Source: Physcia stellaris
Lineage: Eukaryota > Ascomycota > Lecanoromycetes > Caliciales > Physciaceae
Reading direction: 5' to 3'
Assembly (NCBI GenBank): GCA_018902385.1
Contig: JABSSW010000028.1
Location: forward strand, 522,075 to 586,074
DNA: 64,000 nucleotides
A program made the translations under genes and the position numbers. Within the stretch, counting starts at the first letter, position 1; every line of letters begins with the position of its first letter. Positions 29,912 to 64,000 of this stretch are shown piece after piece. The notes under the pieces are model-generated. The model was not told the origin of the DNA, did not search any database, and saw only the letters and a program-made list of their open reading frames with translations.

Positions 29912-31665
29912 ATGGAGCATCCTACAGGCTACGACTCAGACACCACAGCTACAGATCTGGATTCAAAGGACTTGACGTTCGTTCCCAGAAGCTCACCACC
30001 GACCTCTCTCGAAGCACCGATCTCGCCACCTCCATTGAAGCGCAGAAAAACTGCACTCGAATCTACAACAAAATTATCTCCCAGGCCGGAAACCGATGAT
30101 TCCAAAGATTTGTCTAATCTCGCAGCTATTGAAGCCGGTGAGGCTAAGATCGATGACCATCTAAAGTATTTCTCGGGGCATCTGCGGAAATACGTTAAGG
30201 AAGGAAAGGGAGGGTTGGAGGTTATGAGAGTTGAGGAGTGGATGGATTTGTACCGCAGGAATGAGCATGCGCGGGGGAGGCATTTTGTTGTGCATCAGCA
30301 TGATCATCCTGTCGCTGGTGGGTCGATTCGACTTCGGGCTCTTCTAAATTCTACTTCGTTTCTTGTCTTGCTGGCGTCTTATCTTCTAGTTTCCCATTCT
30401 CTTAAGTTGTAGAGCAGCATGATTTCCGATCGTAATGACTAAAGGAGCAGGTTTTATTTCTTGTAGATATATTGAAGAGGTGCTAAATGAGTGAGGCAGG
30501 CGTGCATTATGATCTCAGACTCCAGATCTCAGAGAGTAGTAGCATCAGCTTTGCGATCATGTACGGCCTCCCTGGGAACCCAAACTCGAGAAGACTGAAT
30601 AGGAATGCGACCGAGACGAGGGTGCATAACCTGTGGGTAAGTATTCGTTTCTCCTCCTCATGTTTTGAATTTGAATGGTATGATCGACCGTTTCATGGAG
30701 TGCAATTAGACACCATTTAGTATCGGTCCATGTTCCCCTAGACTGACTTTCCAAAGAATCACCTCATCGAAACCGCCTCGTCGCAGACGGGAAGCCTTCT
30801 GATATGGGACACTGGCGAATACTCCATCCTTCCCTTCCACGAAACATCCTCTAAGGCCACGGACGACGAAGATTCAGAAACCTCGTCCGTCTCTTCATCC
30901 GCTCCACGGACTTCAATATCCGAAAGCGAGAAACTGCATCACGCTTTCCAAAACGTACGTCTGCACTCTAAGCTTTTTCCATTTCACTACTTCCCCATTT
31001 AATCTGCATACACGAGACGCCAAAAATCCCCATATTTATCGAAGATGAAGCTCACACCACGAGCACAGCGCAAAATCCGCCTCCGCCTACACGGCCACCG
31101 CCTGCCCCCAAACTACACCATCTCGCTCCGCCTCCTCCCCAGCAACAACCTTGCCTCGCAGCCCCCAAAACCCCTCCGCAAACGCCGTCGTCGGCCTTCC
31201 ACCCACCTCTTTACCAAAGGCCCAAATACCAGCGACGAGGACTCTGAATCCGACACCGCTTCCACTCCCACATCCACTGTCAGCCCAGATGGCAAAAGCA
31301 TCGAGTTGAAGAGTAAGTCAAGAAAAGAGCTCGCCCAAGAAATCGCAGACCAAGAATCCGAAGCCGTGCGCCTGCACAACGCCTACCCCGGCGCAACGAA
31401 CAGCATCGGCTCCATCCACCAGCGCCGCTGGTTCCTGAGTATGGATCGCCGCGCGTCGGGGTTTGTGCCTGTTGCTACTGCCGAAGGAGAAAGGAGATGG
31501 GTTAGAGGTGGGGATGGGGATGGGGATGGGGATGGGGGCTTCCTGGTGCGCGGAAGGGATGTCGAGAGGAGTGTGCTTACGGGGAGGAACGCGGATGAGG
31601 TTATGCGCGATGAGGCCGTGAGGGGGTTTAGGGGAAGGAGGGGGTGGAGGGCTGTTGTGGAATGA
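29912..31665 (+). CDS. DNA ligase D-type 3'-phosphoesterase domain protein
   Basis: Four exons: 29912-30317, 30500-30636, 30757-30954 and 31069-31665 (445 residues). A last acceptor at 31044 is also in frame and would add eight residues. The domain reads RGRHFVVHQHDHPVAG joined across intron 1 to VHYDLRLQISESSSISFAI, then MYGLPGNPNSRRLNRNATE, NHLIETASSQTGSLLIWDTG and KIRLRLHGHRLPPNYTISLR. The His/Asp residues of HQHD and HYDL are the metal-binding set of LigD phosphoesterase domains, which trim 3'-phosphate and ribonucleotide ends in bacterial end joining. Fungi often carry this domain without ligase or polymerase modules, as here, so a DNA end-processing role is likely but unproven. The N-terminus is Ser/Pro-rich with a KRRK patch. 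The C-terminal region includes a Gly/Asp run from a GATGGG hexamer repeat near 31,508-31,533. Introns (182, 120, 114 nt) are longer than the local norm. Confidence 0.88.
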
Positions 31666-32742
31666 GTTTCGAGGGGGTGGAGGTGGGTTGGATTTTTTGA
31701 TTTGGGGGTTTTGGGGAGAGGAGGTGGGTTGATGAGGAATTGATAGGTAGGTCTTTTAGTGCTGAAGTGAAAGAAGGAAGTGTGAGATGCCAGTTTTGGA
31801 AAAACCTTTTGTTATTTATTGAAAAGGCGCCGCGTTTGGGCCTTCTTGTTTTCTGGATGCCTGGTTTCCATGGCTTTGATGATCCTGATGGGGGTTTGGT
31901 CAGACTTGAGACTGGTTCAGATGGATTTGACGACTTGACGATTTGACGACTTGACGACTTGACGACTTGACGACTTGACGACTTGACGACTTGACGACTT
32001 GACGACTTGACGACTTGACGACTTGACGACTTGACGACTTGACGACTTGACGACTTGACGACTTGACGACTTGACGACTTGACGACTTGACGACTTGACG
32101 ACTTGACGACTTGACGACTTGACGACTTGACGACTTGACGACTTGACGACTTGACGACTTGACGACTTGACGACTTGACGACTTGACGACTTGACGACTT
32201 GACGACTTGACGACTTGACGACTTGACGACGTGAGGACTCGACGACTTGACGATTTGGGAATGAAATTTGCCAAGAGGTCAATTGACGATATACTGATCT
32301 TGGTTTCGTACCTCGTATATCGGGTTCGATACTAGTAGGCCTAAGAATTGACAAGAGAGATATTATACATGAGGATTGCGGTCGTTGACAGTTTCGTAGC
32401 GACTAGGAGGAACATACTGGATAGAAAAAAAGAAAAGAAGGAAAGGGGCATAAAAAACGTGTGAGAGAGAAGAAAAAGAAGAGCATAGCCACCGGCATCA
32501 GTATGATCAGTCACAGCGGGACTTCGTAGATGCGTGAACGGAATCGAATTGATGTCAATACCAATCAACCGACTCTGTTTAATCCGAAGCATTTCTCTGC
32601 ACTGTTTCCATAAGCATGAACATATCCAAGTCCCAACTCCAATTGCACGGGAAAAGGACCGGGTAATCCAACACCCATCGTTGCGTCCCATCATCACTTA
32701 CAAACCTGTACACCCTACCCACGAACCACCCCAATCCAAAAC
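31666..32742. other. Intergenic region dominated by an octanucleotide satellite
   Basis: Between the convergent phosphoesterase (+) and Cys-rich (-) genes. It contains the GACGACTT array (listed separately). Bases 32,400-32,740 are otherwise unremarkable and hold the 3' flank of the Cys-rich gene. Confidence 0.6.
31929..32257. repeat. Octanucleotide tandem array (GACGACTT)n, about 41 units
   Basis: Bases about 31,945-32,230 are an essentially perfect run of about 35 GACGACTT units. Variant units lie at both ends (GACGATTT at 31,937 and at 32,249, and GTGAGGACTC at 32,231). Because 8 and 3 share no factor, every frame of one strand reads the same eight-codon cycle. On the minus strand it is the open octapeptide KSSSRQVV; on the plus strand it contains a stop. 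The open frames seen here are therefore a by-product of the repeat. Confidence 0.97.
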
Positions 32743-45440: not shown

Positions 45441-47164
45441 TTATCCGAAGTTCTTCTCAAGCCTCTTGAATAGGCGGTTCACGCCTTTATCGACTTTTGC
45501 AGCTTTTTGCTCAAATCTACCTGGTTGCTGACCTGGTCCAGCCTCGGAATGCTTCCGGTGCTTATGAGCCTCTTCCTCTGTTGGCCTGTAGAACTGATTA
45601 TGCACGTCATATTCACTACCTTGAGAGCTATGGCTATGATGCCGTTGGGGTTGCTGGCTGTAGTCAAAATTCGAGTAACTTCCTGTCGGAGCATGCTGCT
45701 GAGCTTTTTGTGGCTGCTGTGACTGAGGGCGAGACCCAAGGTAATCTGCATACTGCGGCTGCAAATGCTGTAATGGCTGTTTCTCACTACTGACATAAGA
45801 GGTCCCCAAGATCTCGGCAGTCGCGGTCCTTTGCAATCTGGGCTCTGCGCCATAGGGTTGTACGTTGGGGTCGACAGGTGGCGGTCCGAAAGACGGCATG
45901 GATTGTTGAGGTGGTGGAGAGACTGCAGTGTGATGGCTCTGAGGCATCGACGCAACGGAAGGCGTGGAACCATATGGGCTTACTGTGTTTCGACCGACCT
46001 GTGGAGGTGGTGGGATGGACGAGATACTCGAATGGCGCTGTCCTTGCACAATAGGCGGAGGAGAAAATGCAGGCTGAGCTGGTGGCGAGGTATGAGGACT
46101 TCCGTAAGCCTGAGGTTTCGGAGGACCGCTAAAGCCTTGCAAGAGAGGTGACTGGCCATAAGAAGGTCGCGAGGTAGGAGCCGGGGCCTGAGAAGGCAGG
46201 GGAGAAGGCATGGGTGAATAAGCTTGTGAATGGTCTCGTTGCGCTGCTGCAGCAAGCCCAGTCCCTTCCTCAGCATCCAATGGTGGAGGTGTCTTCTCAC
46301 GGTGTTTAATAGGTTCTGGAGCAGGAGGTGCCGCCGGGTTGTAGGCCAAAGGTTTGAAGGCTGAAGCGTCCTCTGCATGCGGTAGCTCTTGTCTGGTAGA
46401 GCTTTGTGATGTGCTTGGGGTGGAAGCAGAGGTAAAGGCCACAGAGCTGTTTCGAGAATCGCGTGTCTGGCCATTCTGATAGGCAGGATCCTGTACCGCC
46501 ATATTCTCTAGCTTTTGTACTACAGGACTGGTGATGTCTTGATGGGGATCTTGAACAGGAGGTGCATCCAGCACTTCGACTTGACCTTTTTCTAATATTT
46601 TGCTCACGCAACTGATAAAGGCATTCGCATCCTCGGCTTTCCAGAAGTAGAGATCAACAGTATGCAGGCGGAACAGAAACTTGCCTTCGTTTCTTGGGTC
46701 CGTGTTGGGGAGTCGCCAATGGTACTCTTGATTCTGGATTGGTATTTTCGGATCAGCTTGAAATCCGTCAACGGTGATGGTACATAAGGTCGGATGCTTG
46801 TGAGATTGTCTGATGGTTGCTGATTCTAACACTGTATCTCTCTTTAGCCCATTGGTGCTTGATTAGGCCATTGAAGTGCCACCTACACCCAGTAAAGGCG
46901 TCCTGCTCTTGCTTCCCCACATTGTTGGCGATCTCCAAGCGCCCTCCTTTACGAGTCTTGTTTCGGTGAAGATAGAGGTAAGACCCCTTGTCAAATCGAT
47001 GAGATAATGGTCGAGGGGTTGGGGCGCTGAAGTAGTAATGGATATCGGCGAAGCTAAGGCCGCTCTCTGTCAGCATCGATACAAAGGAATGGGCGATACA
47101 CCAGCAGTAAGGTATCTCCAACATACAGAATCAGCATACGCTCTTCCCCGTCGAGACTCGCCAT
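45441..47164 (-). CDS. Conserved fungal protein with PH-like N-terminal region and long Pro/Gln-rich tail
   Basis: Three exons: 47164-47127, 47053-46887 and 46831-45441. The introns are 73 and 55 nt and the product is 531 residues. The first exon encodes only MASLDGEERMLIL. The conserved N-terminal part (FSAPTPRPLSHRFDKGSYLY, HPTLCTITVDGFQADPKIP, then FLFRLHTVDLYFWKAEDANA) looks like a small beta-rich, PH-like fold, by inference. From about residue 160 to 480 it is Pro/Gln/Ser-rich and probably disordered, and it ends in a basic helix (KVDKGVNRLFKRLEKNF). I recall conserved ascomycete proteins of this design with no assigned role. Its start codon lies only about 170 bp from the edge of the RIP-like AT-rich block, so its promoter is squeezed against heterochromatin-like DNA. 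The gene itself appears intact. Confidence 0.75.
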
Positions 47165-47339
47165 GAGCAAACCCACTTGTAGCTTCCTCAGTAGTTTGGC
47201 TTTTCCTGCCTATCTATGGATCAGAGTTAGATCGCTCAATGCTCTAGGCTGGTCCAGAGCAAGGCGCCCAACTCCTGATTCCCTCTGTCTGATTGATTGA
47301 TTGAATCATTCATTAAGCACTCGAAACCGACCTTAAAGA
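47165..47339. other. Boundary between normal and AT-rich isochore, with a GATT tract
   Basis: Composition changes abruptly after about 47,335. A short GATT tract (47,291-47,304; AATC on the minus strand) lies at the left edge, where the 3' end of the minus-strand LINE is expected. It may be that element's simple-repeat tail. Confidence 0.5.
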
Positions 47340-50300
47340 TCCGTTATGCGGCTAAAAACAATCGAGTCAATCATCTTCTAAAAATTTTTGACTCTATACA
47401 GAATTATTTGCTTTTGATGTTTTGTTTTTTATTCGAACAAATCATTTCAAACATTTTTATTTTCATGATTTTTTCTCATTTTCATTTTGTACGAAAATTT
47501 CAATTTAACGCATTTTTTTTGCAATTTTTATTTTTCGTCGTTCGTAATTGAAATTCGTAAATAATCAATGAATTCGAATTTTTCGATAAATTTTGTCGTT
47601 TTTGTCAAATTGATCGAATTGATCAATATGTTCATCAATTTTATTTTTTTCATTTCGTTTTTTTAATTTCGTTAATTCATAAATTTTTGCGAAATTTTTT
47701 CAATTTTGCATTCGAAAAATACGTGTTTAATCGTTTGTTTGTTACATATGCATAAACACATGAAATTTTCGATTTGTTTTTTGTTATATAAAAACGTTCG
47801 TAAATTTATTTTGATTGTGCGAAATTGTATTGTTATGACATTGAATTTTTTAGTGAATTTTTCGTGTAATCGCAATATTGTTTTATTGAATTTCGATGTA
47901 ATTTTATACAAATTTTTTTTATTGCAATTTTTTTATTTTTCATTTTATTGTTGTTTTATCGATTTATTTATCACGATTTTGACGACGTTTTTCAACATTT
48001 GCACATTCGTTTGTTGTGTTTTGTGATCGATGTTTTTTTTTTTTTTCGTTTTTTCAATTTTCATTTCGTGATTTGTTTGATCGCAACGTTTGTTTGTTCG
48101 TTGTTTTTGATATCGATGTGAATCGAAATTCAATGCAATTTCATTTCAATATATTTGTTTCGCAATTCGTTGATCAATCAAATTATTCATTTCATCAAAT
48201 ATTGATCGAAATTGATTTTTGAATTGTGCATCGTTTGAATTGCTGTTTGATTGTCGATGCATATGACGAATTTCGATTTTTTTGCAAATTTCAAAAACGA
48301 ATGCAATCGCATGTTCATTGTTAAAACGATGTCATATAATTCAACAAAATAAATCGTGTATGACGTAATAAATTTCAAATACGTTTTTGTTATAAATAAT
48401 TTCGTTTTTGCAAATATCGTTGTTGCATTCATTTTATCGTTAATGTCGTTTTCGTTTGTATATATATAATTGATCGAATTCGTTGTTAATTATATTTTGT
48501 AATATTTTTCAATTTTTTTGTTTTTCATGATACGTGCAATTGACGATGTTCATCATGACAATACGACAAAAAATAAAATTTTTTTCATATCGTATGTTTT
48601 GATGTTTTTTTTTTTGAATTTATTCATTAGTTTTTTCAATAAATTGACGTTTTTCGATTTTTTGATGAAACGATCGCGTATAATCGTATCGTATATCGAA
48701 TTTGTTATTAATTTCATTGCGAACGCGTTGATGAATTTATTCAAACGTAAATGCATAAACATTGAATTGATTTCGATGTTGAACGTTTTTTTCGAAATGA
48801 TTTTGTATGTTTTCGTTATGATTTTTTCGATTTGATATTGAACATTCGTTAATTTTTTGATTATTTTTTTGTTGTGATTTTTTTTTTGTCGACGTGTATC
48901 ACATCGAACATGCGTATGTGAATTGTGAAATGAAAATCGTTTGCATCATTTGTTTCATTTTCGAAAATTTAACATTTCATGTAATGTCGTCGAAATTGCG
49001 TAATGTTTTTATAAATTTCAATGTTTTCGTTTTGTTTTGATTGATTTGTGTTTTTCAATTGAATTTTTCGTTCATTATGATTTTCAAATATTTCATTTTT
49101 TTGTTTGTTTTGATTTTTTGATTGAATTCAAAAAATAATATCGATTCGATGACGTTTTTTTTTTCGATTGAAATAAATGAATTGATATTTGAAAAATGCA
49201 AATTTCATTTTATATTTCAATGTTCACGATACGTAAACTTTTTTTGTGTGTTTTGATTATAATATCGTTACATTTTTCGAAAATGTGATTTTTCGTCAAC
49301 ATTTTTACATCGTCGACGAATTCGTTCGCTAAAATATTTTTTTTCAAAACTTTCAATAAAAATGCGTTGTAAAAAAAAAAATCGATAACATAAATGAATT
49401 TTGAGAAATATATATAAATATTTCGAATCATTCGATATCGTATTCGTTCGTTTTCAAAATCGTCATTTTATTGATCAAAAAAAACAATTTATTTTATTAA
49501 TTTTTCGTTTAAACGTTTCATTTTGAAATTGTGTAACAATTTTAAACGCGTTATATTGTCGAAAACGTTCATCACGTCGAAAAACATGATCACGATTATA
49601 ATTTTTTTGTTTTATGTCGAATGTATTTCATTCGCAAATTGATGATCGATTTCTCAAATACGTCAAAATCTTATAAGCGAATTTGATGAATCAAACGTAT
49701 GTTTTGCTTACAAAAATGTCAAACGTTTTCAAATTGATGAAATAATCATTCAATTTGACAAGAATGTTCAAATTAACAATCATATTTTTTATTGTCAAGA
49801 ATTTTCTGATTCTCAATAGCTTGTAAAATTCAAAATTCTTGAAAAACATATCGTTTCATGCTAATTAATGACATTTTCGAATTTTTGTTTTTTTTTTGCA
49901 TTGTTTTTTATTTGAAAATTTATGCATCACAACGTTCGCAAAGATATTTGACAACATTGTGAATGTCATGTATGAAAAGTTTCATTCGTGTTTTCATCAT
50001 ATCAAATTTCTTCGAATATTGTCAATTTTATATTCTCGATGATTTTTATTATACTATAAAATCACGATAGTTTCGAAAATTTTCTATGCATGATGTCATG
50101 CATGATGTCATTGTAAATAATGTCGAATTGTTTTTTTTTTTCGTTGTTGAAAATTTTTCAAACAAATTGAAATACGATGATCATTGAAACATGATTAAAA
50201 TATATTTTGTTCATTGTTAAACGTCTGAGCATTTTGTCGATTACTCGAATTCTTGAAAATTCTTAAATGAATCGTCGTGAATCAAATTCATCAATTTTCG

Positions 50301-51336
50301 AATTCTCGTCGTCGATTTAAGAAATGTTTTGTAATTTTGATCGTCGTCAAATTGTTTATCATTTTCGTCGTATCATCAAATCATTTCATTTTTTTCAACA
50401 TTGCATTTTTTTTGAATTGAATTCAAATTGTATTCAAAAACAATTTGTATTCAAAATTTTCGAATCGCGTTATTCAATCAACAAAACTCAATGCATTCAT
50501 TTTGCGTTGATTTTTTTTTTTTTGTTTGACGTCGTCGCATTTTGCGTGATATTTGTTAATTGTATATTGCAAATTTCATTGATTTGAATTATTTTTTTCA
50601 ATTTTTTCGTTGTCGACGTTGTATTGACATCGAACATGACATCAACGATGCGCGAATCAATCGAATTTTGATTTTTCAACATTAACGACATGATTTCAAT
50701 TTTTTTCGTTTAAAATAAATGCATTGCATATCGAGTGAAATGTGTCGATTATATTTATTTTCGATTTTGCGTTGATTTTTTAACGATATAATTATTCGTC
50801 GATTTTTTTGATCAATTGACAATCATTAATTTCGTGCAACGACAATTGTTCAGCGTGTCGAAATGATTGAATTGATTTTTGCATTCGTGAACAAATCAAA
50901 TTATTGCAACAAAAAATCGAATGATATTTATTTTTGTAAATTGCAACAGAAATTTTTTCGATAATTTTGTTCGCAAATTCTGTTCAAATCAAACAAATTT
51001 ATTCAATTTTTAATCATGTTTTTATCGTCGCGTTTTTTTCGATTGTTTCGTTTTCGACTCGACGATCGCTGTTGACGTTGATAAAATCATTCATTGACGT
51101 TAATTCGTCGAATAAATTGTCGTCAAACGTCATTTGATCATTTTTTTCATGAAAATCGTCATTTCTTGTTCGAACATTTTTTACGTTTTTGTCGTTTGAT
51201 CGCGAAAAATCGCGTCGCGATTTATCAGTTTTTTTTTTTTTTGAATTTGCGAAAAACAATATAAATCGTCGAAACATTAACGATGAACATTTCGTTGATG
51301 TTAATCAAATGCGACATGACATGCAATATCATTGTT
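47340..51336 (-). mobile_element. Mutated Tad-like LINE (non-LTR retrotransposon), minus strand
   Basis: Very AT-rich sequence (poly-stop after C-to-T decay) still shows LINE domains in minus-strand order. A reverse-transcriptase core lies at about 49,431-49,210 (VIDFFFYNAFLLKVLKK, then ANEFVDDVKMLTKN with the FVDD catalytic box). RNase H is at 48,432-48,187 (CIDNQTAIQTMHNSKINFDQ). The C-terminal Cys/His segment is at 47,911-47,672 (MCLCICNKQTIKHVFFEC). A charged, gag-like segment at 51,277-51,014 would be the upstream ORF. The element's 3' end faces the gene block. It is truncated on the right by the gypsy insertion at 51,342 and may continue after 63,595. No intact protein can be made. Confidence 0.75.
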
Positions 51337-51341
51337 TTATC

Positions 51342-51558
51342 TGTGACGAACGTACATCGAATTCAACATCTGACAGATTTAACATCGAGTTAACATCGTT
51401 ATTTTATCACATCGAATGTTAAGATCGAGATTCGTTTTGACGCATTCAAGAAATCAAATCTTTTACATATGTTTTTGCAAATTTCATGTATTTGCTTTTT
51501 ATTTCGATATTCTCGTGTAATTATGTAGTAATATTATATTTTTGCATAGCATTTCACA
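51342..51558 (+). repeat. Left LTR of the gypsy element
   Basis: Starts TGTGACGAACG and ends CACA. It is collinear with the right LTR at 63,375-63,589, with many C/T and G/A differences, and is preceded by TTATC. Confidence 0.88.
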
Positions 51559-52448
51559 TTATATCGAAGTCATTCTTTTTCATGTTCGTTTATGATACGC
51601 GAGCATTCAAATAAACAAAGCTTTCTGTTTCAAAATTCAAAGATTGATAGAAAAGCATAATAAGTTCGTATCGTTTGATCATTCAAAAGAAACAACAAAA
51701 CGTAACAAATTGATTGTGAATGCGAAGAAACGAAGATAATAAATTCGTTTGTCGATTCAATTGAATATTTTGACAGACGAATCTCAACGATAATCGATGT
51801 CACGAAAAGATTTTCTCGAACGTCGATTCAAATTCGCTTCACTATTAATTGACAAAATTTCTTTGTTTCAGAAATGATTCGATTACATCATCAAACACAT
51901 ATCAAATCATTTCGAAAAAATGACATTCATACAAAAAAACATCAAAAAATTAATCAAAAATTTCACACTCAATCGATTATTTAAGTTTTTTATATTTCGA
52001 ATTTTTTTTTCTTTTTTTTTTCAATTCAATCATTTATTATTTTTTATCATCATGATTTTTTCAATTCGTCTGAAAAAACGTCAACGATTCAACGAAATAA
52101 AAGAACTGAATATTTTCGATTTTAATCAAAAAATCGATGATTTTGAACGTTTTCTCGATATTTATATGATCACAACAATGTTCGATTTTACAAAATCGAA
52201 TTTCATCATGATTTTGACGTCAATTGACATATTCAATTTTTCGAAATTAAAAAGCGATTTTTGAACAATTTGCACGATTCTGAAAAGTTCTGAAATTTTT
52301 TCGAAAAAATAGAAACAAAAACATCAATATCATTCGTGTCTGAAACAATCGCGAAAAATACATAAAAACGAAAAATTTAAAACATTTTTTAAAATTCGAT
52401 GAAATCAACGTTCAACTCGAAACAAATCGAATTGAAACTCATAAATAT

Positions 52449-52599
52449 TGTTACGGTAAACCTTCGCATAGGGCTGGAGTCAGAATATCTTGACCAGAAG
52501 AGACTAGCGCCTTGGCAGCCTGGCCCATATCTCGCACTCTGCTTCCTAGATAGTAACAATCAAGCATATTATCCACCCACATCACGATTTATCGTAACA
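52449..52599 (+). repeat. Left LTR of the small element
   Basis: 151 bp, TG...CA, with a 7-bp inverted end (TGTTACG/CGTAACA). It is preceded by AATAT. Confidence 0.93.
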
Positions 52600-52970
52600 A
52601 TGGTAGCATCATCGAGTTCGATTGACAGCTTTCATCGCTGTCTTAAAACGCAGCTCTAGTTACCGTGTAACGCCTAGCTGCTGCGCAGTTCTAACTCCCG
52701 TGGAGTATCTAGTTCAGCAGACGATAATTGCTGCAGCCCCTGTGGAGCATCTAGTTGCTCTGCAACGTCCAGCTTTCGAGCACCTATCGAGTCAGAATAA
52801 CCTAGCCATTCGGCACCAGAATCCCTACTCACCCACGAGTCCTCCGCATCTCAATAACTAGCCACCGAGCACCAGAAACCCCGGTCCCGAGTCCGCGGTA
52901 ACCAGATCCAGATATTCGACCAGAAGATCTATCTACCTATCTACCTACCTACCCGTCAACTACCGAAATC

Positions 52971-54475
52971 ATGACAATGGCAGTCAGCATTGAAGAGACG
53001 TGCAGAAAGCTTGATACCATGACGAATGCGCTCAAGATCACTATGGCAGAACAAGAAGCGATTGCACGTAAGGATTATCATCGAGAATGCGACATTTTCA
53101 TGCCAAGTCTCTTTGTATCTGATAAATATCCTGAAGAAGATGTGATGTACAAAGAGGACATAGCCATTTATCGAGACGCTAATCGCTTCATTAACAACCT
53201 CAAGATCAAGCGTAACGACGGCTTTCAATTCAAAGCGAAGCTCGTTGCACGGTACTGTTTTCAAGGCTGAGTCGCAGATTGGTTTTTCGACCTTATGAAG
53301 AAGTTGCAAAATCAAATAGCATTGAATCTCGATATCCTTTGCAACCGCTTAGATCAGAAGTACGAGCAAGAATGGCGAAGCATGCGAGATCAACAACAAC
53401 AGAAGAAGCAGCGCATAAAACAAGAAACCGAAGAAGCTCGTATAGCAAAGGAGCGAGCAGAAGCATTTGCCTGCAGACGTTGCCCTGCCAAGTTTCCGAG
53501 CAATACGAAACTCCACCAGCATATCCAGGACCACCACCAGAAGCCTGCAAAGCCTGCAGGCGAAATCGCGAAACCTACACCAAGCGAGCCCGCCAAGATG
53601 ACAACCGCAGATCTTACACCCCCGCAAAACCTCCTCCACCGAGTGAGCCAGCATTGATGCTCACACCACCTATTAGCCAGTCAAAACCGACCTCCGATAC
53701 CTCACTTCCATTGACTCCACCTGCTACACCAATGGCCTCGAAGCCGTCAACTCCTGCCAGCCCCGCAACACCACGAAATCAATTATCCTGGGCCGAAATA
53801 GCCTCACGCCCAGTCATTGCGCCAAAGCCTTCGCGTCTCCCAATTCCTACACCAAAGCGACTACCAAGTATCGCAGAGACTGCACCAATCACATGCCCGC
53901 CTACTCCGCAGCCAGCACCGAAACACCAGAAACCCTACCTTACAATCGAAGACCTGTTCGAGATGTTCGGTGGGAAGCCCAAGAGAACAGACCTCTTCCA
54001 TACCAAGCATCACACTAGGAACGATGCGCATTCTCGAGCCATCTCCCCCTCCTCCTACTCCTACCAGGCCAAGATCACCGCATACTTCAGCCCCGCAGCC
54101 AATCAGGGCATCAGGATTAGTCAGGGCTCGAAAACTCCAAATCCGAGGAGTTTTCAGCAGCATACGCCCGCGGAATCGAACCGCACCAAATCCACCCCCA
54201 GCAAGTGGTCTGAGAAATCGGCCATTTCACCATACAAAACATCGACCTTCTCCCGCCTACCTACCTCAGAGATATCGAGCATCCTGCCATACAAAATGCC
54301 CGTCATCTCTGGCCGCCTACACCGTTCACCTACTCAAGCCCCTTCCGGCATCTCCGCCTTTCGCATACCTGCCGCATCTGCAGCGGTTCTTTCGGATCGA
54401 ACAATGGCCTGCATCGGCACCTAAAAGCAATCCATTTCAACCAAGCGATTCGCCGGCATTGCCGTTGATCATCTA
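52971..54475 (+). pseudogene. Gag-like C2H2 zinc-finger ORF of the small LTR element, broken
   Basis: It begins at 52,971 (MTMAVSIEETCRKLDT) and includes YRDANRFINNLKIKRNDGF. A TGA at 53,268-53,270 interrupts it, and the same frame resumes with WFFDLMKKLQNQIALNL. A first C2H2 finger follows (FACRRCPAKF...LHQHIQDHH). The protein then changes frame near 53,620 to a Pro/Thr-rich part (LSWAEIASRPVIAPKPSRL; TIEDLFEMFGGKPKRT) and again near 54,380 to a second finger (CRICSGSFGSNNGLHRHLKA, ending IH) that stops at about 54,475. I recall similar two-finger proteins as repeats in ascomycete genomes. The stop and two frame changes make this copy non-functional unless it uses frameshifting. Confidence 0.7.
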
Positions 54476-54644
54476 GATCTGGCACCGGGCGCAATCCACA
54501 GAGATATCTGTGCCAATGGACGGAGAACTCGGTGGATTCCTTACTTCTTTACATGTATTACTAATAGAGTTCTCATGGATGGATCGAATGTCCCCGCCAC
54601 ACGGCACAACGAGGGCGTTGTGGTCTTCTTTCGTTGGTGGCATC

Positions 54645-54794
54645 TGTTACGGTAAACCTCCACATAGAGCTGAAGTCAGAATATCTTGATCAGAACAGAC
54701 TAGTGCTTTGACAGCCTGGCTCATATCTCGCACTCTGCTTTCTAGATAGTAAGAATCAAGCATTTATTCATTCACATCACGATTTATCGTAACA
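54645..54794 (+). repeat. Right LTR of the small element
   Basis: 150 bp. Against the left LTR there are about 15 substitutions and one gap. Twelve substitutions put T or A here where the left copy has C or G, and ten of those twelve are in CpY/RpG context. It is followed by AATAT. Confidence 0.93.
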
Positions 54795-55204
54795 AATATC
54801 GTACAAAAATCAACAAGCGATTCGTCGCTAATCGTAAACTAAAAAAAAAACAAAGAAAAAATTTTCGAACGATTAAATTGTCGACGTTTTTTCAAAAATT
54901 AATTATGACGAAAAAATTGATTTTTTCAAAACTCGTTCAAGAAACAAAAAATTAATTTCTAAATACATCGATTTTTCTATTTTTATGAACACAAAAATTC
55001 AAACATTTTCGATTACATTCGATATGATATCTGAAAAATAAATGCGTAAATAAATTGAAAATCAATGCGAATTGATATTTCATTAAACAACAAAAAGTCA
55101 TTGCAATCGTTCAATGATTAAAAAACAAAATCGTCGAACACGTTAAACATTCGACGTAAAATTCAACGTCATTTCTTTTTCGATTATCAAGAAATTTTCA
55201 TGAA

Positions 55205-55663
55205 TTGTTCGATATCATTTACGTTAATGCAAATCATGATCGAAATATTCGACGTAAATACGACGATTTCAAAATGAAATTTTCGAATGTGTACAACGAA
55301 TTTTATTCAAAATTTCTATTATTGATTAATCAATTATTCAACAAATTTGATGACGACAAAATTCATGATTTGAAAAAAAAATTTATCGTTAAATTCAAAT
55401 TGATTATGAATAATTTGAATAATTTCATTTCGTTTGATGTTTTTCATCGAAAAATTCAAACAATCGATAATCGTCATCGACGTATTCAAAATGATGACGA
55501 TAATTTTTTCAAATTTTCGAATTCGATTGCAAACATTTCGAATTCGTCGAAACGAAAAATATTTTGCGAAATTGATCATCAATTACATCAATTCAATCGA
55601 AAAATTTTTTACAAAACTGTCATAATTCGAATTTTTTTTTTGAATAAAAAATGTCGTCGTTAA
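55205..55663 (+). pseudogene. Gypsy gag remnant
   Basis: A frame of 152 codons with the gag layout: NIRRKYDDFKMKFSNVYNEF, then YSKFLLLINQLF, and a run of polar and aromatic residues. It matches the capsid region of fungal Ty3/gypsy Gag after C-to-T decay. It lies just right of the small LTR insertion, which therefore landed within or just before gag. Confidence 0.6.
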
Positions 55664-56477
55664 TTTGATAATTTAAAAAACATTGATAAAAAAAAAATGA
55701 AATCAAACAAATCGTTATTCGAATGAATAAACGATTTGATTAAAAAAAAAATATTCAATTTTCAAAATATTGCAACGATTTTCGATTATGTTAACAATAT
55801 ATTCATTGTTTTTTCATTTTTCGATGAATCGAAAAACTAATTATCTTTTTCGAAAACGCGAAAAAAATTATCAAAATTTGTTCACGAAATTTTCAACATA
55901 ACATTTTTAACGAATTTCTTTGTAAATTTTTAATTAAGAAAATAAATTTGTTTTTGACAATCGAAAAATCATGATTCGCGACTTAATTGATATCGATGTT
56001 TTTGAATATGTTTTCGATTAATGAGAAAATTGCGCAAAAAATTTTGTAATAAATTAAAATTAATTTCAATATTTCTATCGAAATTCAAAAGAATTTTTAA
56101 TTTCGAAAAAACAAAAATCAAATTTATTATTCATCAAATATTGTTCAAAATGACGATACAAAATCATTCGAAACTTTTCGCTTTTTCTGTTTATAGAACA
56201 CAACCTATAAAAAATATCTATCGTTTCCTCTACAAAAAGTTTACTACCTTATTGGGTTAGACCAATCTTGGCGAAGAACATCAAAGTTTTGGTGCAATTT
56301 TTTCGCACATTGCACACCAACCAAGAACTTGATATGATTTTTGTCTATGTAGTCAAAGTTGTAGAGTTTAATGAGGGGAATCCAATACTGTAACGTTTGT
56401 TGAATTCTGACGTGGGCGCATCGAGTTATTGAAATGCGGAGTTTTGATCGCATACAAATTGATGGATTCGGGGTTCG

Positions 56478-58022
56478 ATGACCCAAACACCAACAACAAC
56501 ATCAACTTCAACTCCATATCAACTCAACCACGAGAATTTCAACGAATCCCAACAAATCATGCAGCTGACGTTGGATTTAGGCCTTTCTACTACGGCGCGT
56601 TCGCGTGGTGCAGCAAATCGCCATGCCAAAGAGCGAGAGAAACGGGGTGCTCTCCAGAAACTTACTCCTACTTCTACGTTTACCTTTACTTCTGCTGCTG
56701 CATCGATCGAAATCAGCGCTCCCTACGAATGTCATTCAATGACTGTTACACCTCAAACACCCGTCGAGTTTCGAGAGCCTCACTACACAATCAATGGCCG
56801 AAATGGAATGACGTTGGATAGACAAGAGCCTGGAATCTATCCGGTCCCACAGCCAGCTATTATTCAGGATCCAATGACTAAAGCACGTCCCATGTTTGAC
56901 GTTGCATTCGATGTTTCAAAGGTTAAGACACATACGCGTTCTCAAGTGGAATCACAGCAAAAACTGCTGCAAAAGGATCAGGAAGCTTGGGAGGGTCAGA
57001 TCTTTCAATACTTTTGGCGATTGGAACGATCTGAAATCATACGAATCAATGGAGAACTTTTTCTTCGGATCTCGAATATCGGTTAGGACTGTCTGGAGGG
57101 GCTTTGTTTCAAGAGCATTTTCGTTTTCAACCTTGGACGGAGCGTTCTGTATGGAGTGGTTATGCTCATTGCAAATTCAAAAGTATTACTCTCCTCTTTC
57201 TACGGCTGTTCGAGCCAACGATGAGGAGAAAATTCGCTTGCATATGAGGGAGGAAATAGTGAAACATAGCAGTCGTTTTCTTCTCAAATCGTTGACGAAA
57301 TACGCCTGCAATGCGATGCAAAGAAAGAGATGGAAACTTGATCCTCCACACAATATCCCAACCCCGAAGAAGCTCAACTTGCAAAGGATATCAAGCGGGC
57401 GAAAAAGGCGAACGAAAGAGTGAAAGCGGAGGCAACAAGAATAGAAAGGGAAAAGCATTCAGCTTGGCCAGACGAGCCGGACGATTCTGATGAGTCGGAC
57501 GATACATATATGACCGACGAATCGATCGATTCTGACAATCGTTCTGACGACGACGAGGAGTGCAATGGAGCGAGTTGGTTGAATTGAGAACCGAAGCAGA
57601 CGAGCATAAATGGAAGCAAAAAAGAGCTTTACTCGAGTATGCCATGGTCGATATAACCTCCACGAATTGCCCTCTTCAGGCCGAATCGACCTCCACCAAA
57701 TGCCTTATCAAATGCTCCACCGAATGCTCCACCAAATGCCTCAGCAAATGCCTCACCGAATGCCTCACCGAATGCCTCACCGAATGCCTCACCGAATGCC
57801 TCCATGCGCGGATCACTTCCGCAGGCATACACCGATGCAAAGACTGCAGATTCGAGCTTTTCGAGCCTTAATAAGCCAGAAGACCTCGCTGGAGAAACAG
57901 GCCCGATTTGTATGGCATATTCTCGATATCTCTGCCGCAGATGGCCAGGCCAGTCAGAATTCTGGGACCAGCATATGTACATAGTATCCAGAATGGCCAA
58001 TATCAGGGCAAATCTATCCTGA
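56478..58022 (+). pseudogene. Element-encoded protein of the second island, split over several frames
   Basis: The first frame (56,478-57,086) starts MTQTPTTTSTSTPYQLNHEN and includes QLTLDLGLSTTARSRGAANR and MTKARPMFDVAFDVSKVKTH. Coding-like sequence continues in other frames: YYSPLSTAVRANDEEKIRLH (about 57,180-57,240), then a lysine/glutamate-rich stretch with an acidic tail (ERVKAEATRIEREK, SDDTYMTDESIDSDNRSDDD, about 57,380-57,585), and finally a frame (57,804-58,022) with LCRRWPGQSEFWDQHMYIV. The changes of frame suggest decay. I do not recognise the protein; a gag-like or structural protein is plausible from its charge and position. Confidence 0.4.
57694..57804. repeat. 12-bp minisatellite in the second island
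   Basis: About nine units of a CGAATGCCTCAC-type dodecamer, the last four nearly perfect. As 12 is a multiple of three, each frame gives a clean tetrapeptide repeat: SPNA on the + strand and EAFG on the minus strand. That explains the long frames on both strands here. Confidence 0.85.
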
Positions 58023-59531
58023 TACCCTATTGCGCTATACCCAATCGAGAACCATGATATGCTTCGAAGATATGGTCAAATGACTGCAATTTCTGCAGTT
58101 CAGACTCCATGCCTGGCATTGAGACCCCCAGTTATGGACTTCAGATTTGCGGCACTCTTTCCCGATTTAGCTAGCTCAGGGTCTACTTGGCGGCCAACCA
58201 CCAAAAATGTAGTTTGTTGTTGCAGTTGATTTACAACCTGCACATCAATCAGCAATCAAGTATAATTTCCACTTATCTAGCCAGGATTGTAGAGCAGAAT
58301 GAGCGCATTCCAATGCTGCAAAAATAACAGAAATCGGTTCATTATCGCAATAGTTCTGGGGCTTGAAAGGTCATGCTAGAAATGTGCCTGTAGAACAACT
58401 CCGCAACAACGCCTGCGAAGCAACAATGCCATATCCACCATAACTCAATGCGCACTCGCTCGATTTTCGATATTTTTGATTCTTTGAATAGTAAAAACTT
58501 CGTGCTTCAAAACAAGCCTTCGAGTGTATGGTTTACTTACTGGGTTAAGAAGCTATTAAGGTGCGAAATCGATGAGATCGCAAGGGACCCTGATTTCGTA
58601 ATCTTATCAGATTTGACCCTAACCCTAAGAGTTCTCGACAAAGTTTTTTTAAAAAACTTCCGGGCCTACTTGTTATCAAAATAAAACAACATTCGTTGAT
58701 TTTAAATAAATCATGAATGAACAAACATGAAATGATTTTCAACATAATCAATGACGAATGTTATTTCACATCAAATCATTGTGATCATGACGAAAGCATT
58801 TTTTTTATCGTTTCGATCGTCGATATTTCAGAAATTATTCAATTCAAAACAAACAATCAAATAAAACATTTTATTTATCGTTTTTTGAGCGATTTTTCAC
58901 GTCGTTTTTTTTGCGAACGTTCAGAAATATCAAATATTTCAAAACGATCAATTTCGATCTCGTTTCGATCGATTTTTTTTGTCTTATCGTTAAAGACTGA
59001 ATCGAGAAAAAGTCGTCGTTAAAAACTTTTGAATTTCGATTTCAAATATGTCATCGAAAAATAAACAAAGATTATTTTTCGAATAAATTTTTCAAAAAAA
59101 AGCAAAAAGTGAAAACAATACGTGAAATTCAAAAATCGAATCTGATCAACGTTTCGATCAAAAAATTCGATTTATTCAAAAATTTACGCGACGTTTTAGT
59201 CGAAAATCGAAAATTACAATTTTCGAACATGAAAACGACGAGCAAAATTTCGATTTTGACGCATCATTAAATGTCGTCTTTATTGACGCGATTGATTTTT
59301 CAATCGTTAACAAATTTAAAAAAAAAAAATCAAAACATTTTCTTTGATCATGAAAAACTAGACGAAATTATCGACAACGTCAAAAAAATTTAATCAAAAT
59401 AAAGATTGATTTCGATTTGAATTTCAAAAAAATTTTAAAATCATGAAGACAATCGTCGAAAAGTTGAAACGTAAAATTTTTGAATTTTTTAAACGATTCG
59501 AAAGCGTATTCAATTCGAAAAAATCGACAAA

Positions 59532-59783
59532 TTGTTTTCGCATAAATTTTACGATCACAAAATCGAATTGACGAAAAATTCGAATCAATTATTTCGAAAT
59601 CGAATTTATTTTTTATCGTTTAAGAAATTCGAAATTTTTCAGAAATATTTACACGATAATTTTCAAAAGAATTTATTAATTCAAGCAAAGCGTTTTATGT
59701 TTCGTTTATTTTATTCGTCGTCAAATCGAACGAACAATTTCGTGTGTCGATTATCGAAAGTTGAACGTCATAATCAAACGTAA
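59532..59783 (+). pseudogene. Gypsy reverse transcriptase, N-terminal part
   Basis: YDHKIELTKNSNQLFRNRIY, then FQKYLHDNFQKNLLIQAKRF, corresponds to the start of the gypsy RT (the HxIxL..GAxP..PYR and LxEL..YL..NL..GFI blocks) with heavy substitution. The frame is short because stops follow. Confidence 0.6.
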
Positions 59784-60001
59784 TAATTATTTTATTTCGT
59801 TGATTGAAAAAATTTTCGCAAAAATTATCGATTGTAAATTTTGTTCAAATTGAATATCATATTTGTTTTCAATAAATTTCGAATGAATTCACAAAGCGAA
59901 AATTTCATTATTTTTATATGTTTGTTAAACATTTACAAGTATCATGTATTGTTTTTGAATTAATCAATGATTCAATCAATTGACAACATTACATAAACGA
60001 T

Positions 60002-60385
60002 TTGTTGTTCGAATATATCAATCATTTTTGTCAAATGTATTTGAATGATATTTTTATTTACAACAAGATTCGAAAACAACACGAACGACATTTTATTCAA
60101 ATATTTCAAAAATTGAAAAAAAGTCAAATTTCAAATCGATATCAAGAAATGCGAATTTTTTCAAACAAAAGTTTTTTTTTTTTCGACGTCATATTATCAA
60201 CAAAAAAATTTGCGCATGAATTCAAAGAAAATGCAAAATATTGTCAATTGAATTCGTTTCATTTGCATCAAAAAATACAAACGTTTGTAAATTTTTGCAA
60301 TTTCTATCGACGTTTTATCAAAAACGTTTTCGAAATTCGTCAAATTTTTAATTCGAATGATCAAAAAAAAATTGATTTCGAATGA
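60002..60385 (+). pseudogene. Gypsy reverse transcriptase, catalytic part
   Basis: Contains YLNDIFIYN in place of the RT catalytic YLDDILIYS, followed by HERHFIQIFQKLKKSQIS and VNFCNFYRRFIKN, the conserved gypsy block after the palm. The Asp-to-Asn change at the catalytic box is what G-to-A conversion at GpG would give, so the enzyme is dead. Confidence 0.85.
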
Positions 60386-60571
60386 ATCGATTTGATCAAT
60401 GAAACGTTCGAAATTGTAAAAAAACAAATGATCGAAATTTCAATTTTTCGACATTACGATCGTAATCGTAAAACGATTTTGAAAATCGATTTTTCGAATT
60501 GATGTTTAAATGAAATTTTTTCAATACGACGACGACGAAATTTTTCATTCGATAATTTTTTCAACAAAAAA

Positions 60572-60757
60572 ATGATTTTTGTCGAATGCAATTACGAAAT
60601 ATATAACAAAAAAATTTCTAATCATTATTCGATATTTAAAATATTGAAAATTCGAATTCGAAAATATCGACGAATTCGTCGAAATTTACATCGATCACAA
60701 AAATCTGAAAATTTTTATGACAAAACAAAAATTCATTTTTTTCGTCAAATGCGTTGA
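60572..60757 (+). pseudogene. Gypsy RNase H remnant
   Basis: VECNYEIYNKKISNHYSIF followed by RNLHRSQKSENFYDKTKIHF matches the gypsy RNase H block AECNYEIYDKELLAI...TDHKNLEYF. The catalytic TDH is destroyed (it reads HRS). Confidence 0.75.
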
Positions 60758-60921
60758 ATCGAAATTTTGACTGATTACAACATCAAAATTCAATATCAAT
60801 TCGACGTCAAAAACGTTAAAATTGATGTTTTGATTCGAATGTTTGAATTTCGTTCAGCGAAAAACGACGAGAAAAATTTTTATAAAGAACAAATTTTGCT
60901 TTTTTTTTTTCGATTACAATT

Positions 60922-62650
60922 ATGTTGATAGACGCGATGAACGATTTGTACGAACGTGTCATGCAAATCGATCGCGAAAACGAAAATTGTATTAATCATC
61001 GTCAAATTTTGATCGATAATCAAATCATTAACGAAAAAATAAATTTGCAAAATTGTTCGAATCGAAATGAAATTTATTTAAGAACGAAAATCTTTGAATA
61101 TCAAATCGATTAAATTTTATGATTGAAATAATTCGTGACGTTCACGATCAATTTTTTTTGTGCACATTCGAACATGAATCGTATTGAAAAATTCATTAAG
61201 CGTTATTATTATTGATTTAGTATAAAATTATTCATCAAACGTTATATTCGTAATTGTCAAAATGTCAACGATCGAAATTTTCACACGATGATCGTCACGA
61301 ATTATTAATTTCATTATCGATTTTTAATCAACGATGAATTGATATATCGATGAATTTCATAATCGAATTGTTTGATTTCAAAAACAACAATGCCATTTGT
61401 ATTATTATCGATCGTTTGATCAAAAACGACATTACGTTTTTGCGTAATCGATGACGATGACTTGACAATTCAAATTTGTGTTAAAATATTGATACATTAC
61501 GTATTTCGTATTCATGAATTATTTTTTTCATCATTTCAAATCGAGATGATCAATTCGTAAATCGCGTTTGAAAAGTTTTTTGTAAACGACTAAAAATCAA
61601 ATGTAAATTGTTCATTGCTTTTCAATTTGAAACTGATGATCAAATCGAACGAATCAATCAGAATATCGAAATTCGATTGCGTTTGTATTGCAATTATCGT
61701 CAAAACGATTGAATTGATTGAATAAATATAATGAAATTCGTTGACAATAACGATATTTCAACAATTATCGAATTCATTTCATTTTTCATCAATAAAGAAT
61801 ATCATTTTCGAATGATTTTCGAATCAAATCTAAATGATTACGAAATCACAAAAACGTTTGTTGACTAAACAAAACGAATTCACTGTCGAAAAAATGAATC
61901 GTATCATCGAATATGTCAAAATCAATATTTGTCGATGCAAAACAAAAAATGACTGTTCGAATCAACAAGTTTCGTTTGTTTATAAATTTTGAAATAAAGA
62001 ATTATTTTTGATTAAATCGTCGTAATATAAAAACGATTCGCCCATCGAACAAACTCGACGACAAAAAATTGAATTCATACAAAATAATTAAAAAGAAATC
62101 TCGTTTATGAATTGAAATTGTTCGACGACATGCACATTCATTCAGTTTTTCATTTTTGATTGTTGAAAAAATTTAGAAATTCGTTGAAAAAACAACATAA
62201 CGAGTTTTCAAAATCAGTTATTGCAAATGAAATGTTTGAAATGAAAATTCGATAATATATTAAAATCTCGATATCATTATCATCGATTACAATATCGTTG
62301 CAATTGATCGAATGAAATTTTTCGCGATCGAATTTGATATTACGTCGACGACGACGAATTTCAAAATATTCAAAACATCGTCGATGTTTTCACGAAATTA
62401 ATTCAAAAACAGCAAAATTTGTTTTGCGAAATGATTAAATTGAATTTTATTGTTTACGATCGATCAAAAAATTGTCAGCGAATTCGTTACAATTCATTTT
62501 CAAATTGATTTCAATAATTTTTTTTGTCATTCGTTTCGTTATCATTTCGCGTTGTTTACAATCAGAATTTACGTCGCAGAAAAACTGAATCGTGTCAAAA
62601 ATATTTTCAGAAATTGTCGTCGAATTTTATTGAACAATGAATAATAATGT
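60922..62650 (+). pseudogene. Gypsy integrase remnant
   Basis: After a spacer, a frame with LYERVMQIDRENENC is followed (about 61,130-61,220, frame broken) by VHDQFF and MNRIEKFIKRYYYW, the His/Cys zinc-binding block of gypsy integrases. Core-like fragments continue to about 61,760. All are interrupted by stops. The end at 62,650 is approximate. Confidence 0.6.
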
Positions 62651-63374
62651 AAAATGTCATGCAATGAAATAAACGAACGCAAATTGTCAAAAAATTCGAA
62701 TATTTACAAATTCGTCAACAAAATTTTCAATTGTTTACTAATGACACGCGAAATTATTTGTAAAATTCGTTCAAAATATTTGTTTTTCAAAAAATCTAAT
62801 ACGTGCGCATATTTCGTTGAATGCAATGTACGAATCAAACGTCGTATATGCGATAACATCAACGCGTTAATCGTGATAATAAAAAATTCTTTCGACATGA
62901 TCAAATTGTTCGTTTCTCGAAATCAATTTGATGTAACAAAAATTTTCAAAATTTTTGACGTTAAATCGTTCAATTGTTTGTTTATTAATGTTCGTCGAAA
63001 TTATTTCTGACGAATTGTATAAATTAATCATTTTTCACGACATTCATTACATTCACGCTTTGTCGTACGATGTACACATCAATTTTCGCATACGCGAAAA
63101 TATCAAAATCTTAAACATTGTTACGATGATTTTATTAACATGATCAAATTGTTCATTTAAATCGTAAATCGATTTGATGTTTTCACGATTCTTGACGAAT
63201 CGATTTCGCGAACGAAATCGATTTCACAACATTTCGAATTTATTTATTCATTTTATCAATCATTCATTTCAACGTCATTCAACAACACATCTAGATCGCG
63301 CAAAACGTTCATCGTTAAAAACAAAAACATTCAGTTGATCGTTTCGAAACGAAATTGAAAAAAACGAGAAATAA

Positions 63375-63589
63375 TGTGACGAACGTACATCGAATTCAAC
63401 ATTTGACAGATTTAACATCGAATTAACATCGTTATTTTATCATATCGAATGTTAGAATCGAAATTCGTCTTGACGCATTCAAAAGATCAAATTTTTACAT
63501 ATGTCTTTGCAGATTTCATGTATTTGTTTCTTACTTTGATATTTTCGTGTATTATGTAATAATATCATATCTTTGCATAAGATTTTACA
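63375..63589 (+). repeat. Right LTR of the gypsy element
   Basis: Starts TGTGACGAACG and ends TTTTACA, followed directly by the TTATC target duplication. Confidence 0.88.
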
Positions 63590-63594
63590 TTATC

Positions 63595-64000
63595 GAAAAT
63601 ATTGCGAAATTCATCAAATCGAAATTTTCATCATCGTTCGAATTGTTATATATTTTTTTCGTTACAATCGAAATTTATTTTCTGGATTTGATTTTTCGAT
63701 GTCGATCGAGTTTCGCGAAAATATTTCGTCGATCAACTTTTTGCGTTTATCAAACGTTTTTTTCAAACGCGTTTCAATTTTTTATAGATTTTTATTCGAA
63801 CATAAACAAAATGATAAAATGAAAATATATATTTTATCGAGCAATATTGTTTTTGAAACGATATTTGATTATAAAATCTACGTTTTCACTTTTAAAAATC
63901 ATGCAATCATTGTACGAATCACAATGTATTTGATGTTATAAATTGAAAATATTTGATCGTAATTGACATGTGATTCAAAATTTTGCGCTCGTCGTTAAAG
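63595..64000. mobile_element. AT-rich remnant right of the gypsy element, probably the other part of the LINE
   Basis: The sequence has the same CpY-depleted composition as the left LINE block. On the minus strand about 25 codons are open and charged (KKTFDKRKKLIDEIF, RNSIDIEKSNPENK), compatible with the upstream ORF of a minus-strand LINE split by the gypsy insertion. The window ends inside it. Confidence 0.45.

Follow-up and report, generated by a model that had tools for sequence, protein, structure and literature searches.

Transposable elements of the lichen-forming fungus Physcia stellaris were probably destroyed by a RIP-type mutator that prefers CpC and CpT

Introduction

The DNA considered here (the window, 64,000 nucleotides in its whole length) is the terminal part of contig C28 in a 44.0 Mb, 147-contig assembly of the lichen-forming fungus Physcia stellaris, and its right edge coincides with the contig end. 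The AT-rich blocks in its last quarter are very probably transposable elements destroyed by a mutator of the repeat-induced point mutation (RIP) type, which attacks cytosines in the order CpC > CpT >> CpA, CpG. An earlier sequence-only reading had proposed a repeat-silencing mutator that targets cytosines followed by a pyrimidine (CpY, i.e., CpC or CpT) rather than CpA. Comparisons between element copies support this preference and refine its order; the mutated blocks are indeed multi-copy, yet not every repeat in the window is mutated.

Composition of the AT-rich blocks

The GC content amounts to 0.23-0.26 in the AT-rich blocks and to 0.489 in positions 1-47000, and the dinucleotide bias of the blocks far exceeds the expectation from base composition. 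Compared with positions 1-47000 (values in brackets), the observed/expected ratio in the blocks is 0.00-0.02 for CC (0.96), 0.20-0.21 for CT (1.07), 3.3-4.1 for CG (0.86), 1.16-1.35 for CA (1.11) and 0.41-0.43 for TA (0.70), and thus the odds ratios bear out the claimed depletion of CpY. Counted on both strands, CpC and CpT make up 2 and 99 of 1317 cytosines at 47340-52440, 0 and 26 of 322 at 54800-56200, and 4 and 110 of 1392 at 58700-64000. The sequence-only reading had quoted four rows with 32 cytosines, of which 16 precede A, 16 precede G and none precedes C or T. This count is correct and the same bias extends throughout the blocks, but the rows were a favourable pick, as whole blocks retain some CpT and a few CpC. 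Accordingly, the statement that CpY is exhausted while CpA and CpG are spared stands for the nearly absent CpC; CpT is heavily depleted only, and there is weak loss at CpA and CpG.

From position 46800 onward, CC and GG together number 6-27 per 150-bp step outside the blocks and zero inside them, except for three steps (1, 2, 1; edge steps excluded). The range 47340-64000 to which the sequence-only reading had assigned its observation is therefore not uniform but a mosaic of three mutated blocks (approximately 47290-52446, 54796-56194 and 58670-64000) and two pieces of normal composition in between, which are unmutated repeats (CC observed/expected 0.91 at 52441-54799 and 0.93 at 56201-58699). 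The features are as follows (CC and CT values are observed/expected ratios):

47290..52446, minus strand: copy of a family B retroelement, CpY-mutated (CC 0.01, CT 0.20)
52447..54795, no strand assigned: family C repeat with normal composition and genome matches, unmutated
54796..56194, plus strand: family A retrotransposon copy, first part, CpY-mutated (CC 0.00, CT 0.21)
~56195..58669, no strand assigned: family D repeat, unmutated and young, inserted into the mutated family A copy according to an empty-site comparison
58670..64000, plus strand: family A retrotransposon copy, second part, CpY-mutated and reaching the contig end (CC 0.02, CT 0.21)
59876..60928, plus strand: reverse-transcriptase/RNase-H-like remnant with the motif YLNDIFIYN, 351 codons free of TAA and TAG and interrupted by 5 TGA

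The motif YLNDIFIYN is present as the sequence-only reading had reported, and we take its intact form to be YLDDILIYS.

The genome contains 39 matches to family B, the strand of which was assigned from a relative, L065, that carries an RVT_1 domain whose frame lies on the minus strand. The edge of the element is well defined: 25 of 30 copies begin at most 15 bp from window position 47290, where the frequency of CC/GG per position drops from 0.07-0.12 outside to 0.00-0.03 inside. This sharp drop argues that mutation did not leak into the flanks there. The first part of the family A copy has at least 41 genome matches (40 of 57 candidates scored) and is continuous with the sequence from 58670 onwards in other copies; positions 59900-60900 have at least 42 (40 of 363 candidates scored). 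The family D repeat that separates the two parts was recognized as an insertion by comparison with the empty site in two loci (L011, L035), with a 4-base overlap at the joint. Its normal composition and the presence of matches that are 98-100% identical (15 of the 41 matches listed, window copy included) indicate that the insert is young and unmutated. Mutated relatives of family D exist as well, namely the copies L072 and L073 and a piece in L066.

The CpT sites that survive in the family B copy are clumped at 49650-50250 and 51300-51900, with up to 11 CT/AG per 150 bp and 0-4 in neighbouring steps, as if mutation were patchy.

Mutation spectrum in element copies

The unmutated window copy of family D served as a reference over 1.4 kb (56800-58200). 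This copy is rich in CpY (136 CpC and 161 CpT among 618 compared cytosines), and therefore, the elements were not originally devoid of these dinucleotides, a possibility that the sequence-only reading had named as fatal to its own claim. In L072, C-to-T changes affect 130/136 CpC and 105/161 CpT, 3/181 CpA and 7/140 CpG; the corresponding values for L073 are 120/135, 110/165, 14/179 and 18/142, and for the mutated piece in L066 they are 25/33, 20/55, 7/62 and 3/36. The other outcome that had been named as damaging, changes residing mostly at CpA, was thus not found. Transitions from C:G to T:A account for 245 of the 259 substitutions in L072, and read on the plus strand they comprise 120 C>T and 125 G>A next to 14 other substitutions. 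L072 and L073 are symmetrical between strands (CpY rates of.75-.85, CpR rates of.03-.13 per strand, R being a purine), and the base on the 5' side is without effect at CpT (.66-.68 for the four bases) and has little effect at CpC (.90-.98).

In an alignment of 30 family B copies, L063 and L065 are the two with the fewest mutations. Over approximately 1 kb they differ at 93 sites, all 93 of which are C/T or G/A differences at CpC (38) or CpT (55), with none at CpA or CpG and zero other substitutions; by strand, 66/122 and 27/60 sites are changed. Relative to L065, the 28 other copies show C-to-T changes at 98.0% of CpC, 91.3% of CpT, 12.6% of CpA and 5.8% of CpG sites; averaged per copy, the losses at CpA and CpG are 12.7% and 5.8%. 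A 5' G slightly lowers the CpT rate in this family (.85 for GCT,.93-.95 for the other 5' bases). A comparison of 30 family A copies that dispenses with a reference yields the same picture: columns polymorphic for C and T are 82/82 of those before T and 7/7 before C, 83/106 before A and 37/95 before G, and the share of T among all cells is 92% at CpT, 96% at CpC, 21% at CpA and 14% at CpG.

These copies also bear on a slower process, in which 5-methylcytosine, deposited by DIM-2 at CpC and CpT of heterochromatic repeats, would be lost by ordinary deamination as the elements age. The genome encodes a DIM-2 homologue, and unmutated copies of families C and D are unexpected under frequent RIP. Yet, during slow ageing other mutations should accumulate along with the loss of CpY, whereas all 93 differences between L063 and L065 fall at CpY, and L072 combines 235 CpY changes with only 14 substitutions other than C>T or G>A. 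Moreover, the loss of CpT across the 28 family B copies does not correlate with transversions as a measure of age (rho -0.01). Slow ageing thus appears improbable, and a mutator of the RIP type accounts better for the copies.

Stop codons, RIP indices and evidence from the genome

Support beyond the window comes from the types of stop codons and from loci located by similarity. Mutation at CpY can turn the tryptophan codon TGG into TGA but cannot convert CAA or CAG into stops, and hence, stop types discriminate between CpY and CpA mutation; simulated on five open reading frames (ORFs) of the window, CpY mutation yielded TGA only, and CpA mutation TAA and TAG only. Within reverse-transcriptase frames of the genome (150 matches listed, from 150 of 527 candidates scored; 149 rows counted) we found 249 TGA, 33 TAA and 3 TAG, 285 stops in total, as CpY but not CpA mutation predicts. 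TAA or TAG occurs in 28 rows, and 10 rows are free of stops. The ten matches to DDE_1 transposases contain 44 TGA, 3 TAA and no TAG, and since the pattern is shared by both kinds of frames, the spectrum is limited neither to the window nor to retroelements. Two reverse-transcriptase matches (G000:C5:1166521-1166997 and G000:C12:60312-60788) have equal scores and lie in open frames of 1024 and 1151 codons without a stop; they are probably young copies that are still unmutated.

The DDE_1 frames are also relevant to editing by a cytidine deaminase of the AID/APOBEC type, which would act on single-stranded intermediates (cDNA) of the elements. Such enzymes produce C-to-T changes under a neighbour rule, and eight general cytidine-deaminase (PF00383) matches are found in the genome. 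However, AID/APOBEC-type deaminases read the 5' base. In family D this base makes no difference, and in family B it matters little; both strands are mutated equally, and the stop pattern of DNA transposons shows in part that the change occurs without passage through cDNA. A six-frame search of the genome for APOBEC_N, made without introns and without a eukaryote control, gave no match at E<=1. Given the rule on the 3' base, a cytosine methyltransferase is the better fit, and deaminase editing is very unlikely.

A technical origin of the pattern deserves consideration, since modified cytosines might be miscalled as T by Nanopore sequencing in repeats left unpolished by short reads. Both Nanopore and Illumina reads went into the published assembly (PMC7513301), and repeats are difficult to polish. 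On the other hand, 65-96% of CpY sites are changed in the consensus next to intact CpA and CpG, other repeats within the same stretch have normal composition, and similar decay occurs in other assemblies: seven metagenome ORFs from unknown species resemble the reverse-transcriptase remnant (49-68% identity), and three of the seven terminate precisely at the position of a tryptophan in their relatives. The extent of the change also surpasses the miscalls known to us, and we regard an artefact as a scarcely credible source of the pattern. Among viral sequences in IMG/VR, seven pattern matches contained no relative of the remnant.

Classical RIP, which prefers CpA, finds some backing in the presence of RID and DIM-2 homologues and in another lichen fungus, Endocarpon pusillum, the repeats of which have classical indices (TpA/ApT 1.47; PMC3897900). 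In the P. stellaris blocks TpA/ApT is 0.41-0.43 and (CpA+TpG)/(ApC+GpT) is 1.34-1.51, and none of the 127 one-kb windows in our stretch passes the usual RIP thresholds as quoted in PMC7882544. Together with the 3/181 CpA changes in L072, this leaves classical RIP with next to no probability, and for the copies examined (L063/L065, L072, L073) it is refuted. An index tailored to CpY, (CpC+GpG+CpT+ApG)/(TpC+GpA+TpT+ApA), is 0.03-0.04 in the mutated blocks and 0.88 in 1-47000, and at a threshold of <0.15 flags 21 of the 127 one-kb windows.

P. stellaris bears abundant apothecia, and its published assembly, derived from an ascospore culture, comprises 46.57 Mb with a GC content of 43.3%, and the word RIP is absent from the genome paper in the form accessible to us (PMC7513301). 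From this GC content, set against 48.9% in 1-47000 and approximately 25.5% in the blocks, we infer that about a quarter of the assembly may consist of mutated DNA.

Candidate enzymes

A PF00145 profile search of the genome returned four matches that correspond to three genes. The C3 gene is a DIM-2 homologue, named from its length and motifs. The C5 gene is a canonical RID (934 amino acids when spliced, motifs PPCQ and LEQT) and matches a P. stellaris protein at 100% identity over the 295 residues searched. The C6 gene, at G000:C6:791557-792528 (L005, L070), is a second member of the RID family (508 amino acids when spliced, motifs PPCQ and MEET). In a tree of 37 rows, several deep forks of which are unresolved and the groups of which were named after a first tree, C5 groups with the RIDs of Teloschistes, Xanthoria, Caloplaca, Usnea, Alectoria and Lecanora. 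C6 lies on a long branch that it shares with Heterodermia and unnamed metagenome sequences, and this branch falls on the same side as the Eurotiomycete DmtA proteins (98/95). A grouping of C6 with the second paralogue of Teloschistes, Caloplaca, Fulgogasparrea and Lecanora was rejected (p-AU 7e-5). In the list of 120 C6 matches (of 2567), the other paralogue alone represents Teloschistes, Caloplaca and Fulgogasparrea, and Lecanora is absent; these four genera may lack a C6 orthologue, although the 120 matches are no proof of absence.

Relation to known RIP systems

RIP in Neurospora crassa follows the preference CpA>CpT>CpG>CpC, and in Trichoderma reesei CpA and CpG come first and CpC last (PMC5496416). 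As in N. crassa, where RIP depends on RID and DIM-2, C:G is changed to T:A in repeats of P. stellaris on both strands and in a copy-specific manner, leaving AT-rich dead elements, and homologues of RID and DIM-2 are present. Unlike in N. crassa, the order is CpC > CpT >> CpA, CpG, and TpA/ApT falls instead of rising. CpT is attacked alongside CpA in Magnaporthe, Botrytis and Sclerotinia (PMC4352252), in some families of Colletotrichum truncatum (TpA/ApT 0.93-1.68; PMC6180176) and, again with CpA, in Anisogramma (TpA/ApT 1.31-1.66 in five families; PMC10998396), and Van Wyk et al. report that CpT>TpT dominates in the elements that they aligned from RIP-positive controls (PMC7882544). These variants share the CpT target with P. 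stellaris; they differ in that CpA is mutated as well and TpA/ApT is raised where it is given, while in P. stellaris CpC is the foremost target and CpA largely escapes. CpG-biased, RIP-like mutation in Microbotryum, Tuber and basidiomycetes (PMC4352252) is likewise a repeat-linked C-to-T change with a dinucleotide signature of its own, but P. stellaris preserves CpG (7/140 changed).

Taken together, the process is of the RIP type in the broad sense, and it is not classical CpA RIP. Nearly all changes are C:G to T:A (245/259 in L072, 93/93 between L063 and L065); they are confined to repeats, as seen from the edge at 47290 and the multi-copy blocks, with two repeat families unmutated; both strands are mutated (120 C>T and 125 G>A in L072), and RID-family genes are present (the RID C5 and the paralogue C6). 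The hallmarks of classical RIP, a preference for CpA and raised TpA/ApT, are missing (CpA 3/181 and 14/179; TpA/ApT 0.41-0.43), the low numbers of changed CpG (7/140 and 18/142) are at odds with CpG-type RIP or the decay of 5-methyl-CpG, and the marks of AID/APOBEC editing, a 5'-base rule and action on one strand of an intermediate, are missing in family D, with a small 5' effect in family B. CpT was known as a RIP target before. We did not find a preference that places CpC first or spares CpA in the searched literature, as far as its text was accessible, which is no proof of its absence from print; relative to the described preferences, this combination would be new.

Among lichen fungi, Cladonia rangiformis possesses RID and DIM-2 homologues and AT-rich dead transposable elements with sharp edges; its retrotransposons are mostly ripped and its DNA transposons often not (PMC12542154). 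A low-GC peak is given there at approximately 16%, compared with 23-26% GC in the P. stellaris blocks. Cladonia metacorallifera and Gyalolechia flavorubescens were scored RIP-positive with thresholds of the usual kind (Van Wyk et al., PMC7882544). For these two species (PMC7882544) as for E. pusillum (PMC3897900), the published scores use CpA/TpA indices, which the P. stellaris blocks fail. If the RIP-positive scores of C. metacorallifera and G. flavorubescens reflect CpA RIP, the CpY preference would be derived within or near the Physcia lineage.

Proposed mechanism and points against it

In the mechanism that we propose, C-to-T transition is directed to repeats, stays within the element, affects the two DNA strands alike and proceeds far faster than ordinary mutation, and the target cytosine is selected by a pyrimidine on its 3' side, unlike in described RIP. 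By analogy to Neurospora, the process might take place around sexual reproduction. A RID-family cytosine methyltransferase could do the targeting, and, as the most tentative step, the divergent DmtA-type paralogue at G000:C6:791557-792528 might set the CpY preference. It is possible, but doubtful at present, that genome defence in Physcia and its relatives relies on a distinct CpY-specific mutator based on C6, which would represent a lineage apart from RID and from the second paralogue of other lichen fungi; 3'-base recognition by a RIP enzyme would then have been re-specified from purine to pyrimidine.

Several observations weigh against this scheme. In a comparison of 111 aligned RID rows, of which Physcia and ten near relatives were set apart and 100 were left for the column test, no RID residue was found that explains the new preference; the single odd position, N in place of F at residue 672, is common to Heterodermia and also to Lecanora. 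Family D has 14 further unmutated, near-identical copies (98-100%) besides the window copy, and family C is repeated yet unmutated, which implies that RIP is infrequent or that some repeats escape it. Both families might either have expanded since the last round or have escaped through their length, divergence or place.

Finally, a slow loss occurs also at CpA (2-25% per family B copy) and CpG (1.5-20.5%). The CpA loss tracks transversions (rho 0.64, p 2e-4), a correlation on which the divergent copies L066-L068 weigh. Where transversions do not exceed 0.5% (12 copies), 98-100% of CpC and 78-98% of CpT are lost, compared with 1.5-4.5% of CpG and 2-18% of CpA; for this reason, CpA is a weak secondary target rather than untouched.

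Implications

How RIP selects its target cytosines is, to our knowledge, still to be explained. This question becomes testable through an almost inverted preference that leaks little and occurs in a genome encoding three candidate methyltransferases, and if the suggested role of C6 is true, target choice in RIP can evolve and be traced to a gene. In practical terms, heavily mutated DNA can pass as free of RIP under the standard indices, which are based on CpA and TpA, and RIP surveys may miss such species. CpY mutation retains CpG in AT-rich DNA rather than gaining TpA, and since it cannot convert CAA or CAG to stops, the elements die through tryptophan-to-TGA and missense changes.

Further observations

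The family C repeat has terminal direct repeats at 52449-52600 and 54645-54795 that are 89% alike. At least 65 genome matches were obtained (40 of 91 candidates scored), and those of the full-length type are mostly 70-89% identical. Two relatives, L061 and L062, are unmutated like the window copy, with C>T at 7/91 and 6/91 CpC sites and no excess at CpY; the copies of this family have diverged from each other, yet without an excess of C-to-T changes. In the gene-rich part of the window, a minus-strand frame at 31628-32278 encodes a tandem protein repeat (KSSSRQVV...), which represents a short minisatellite.

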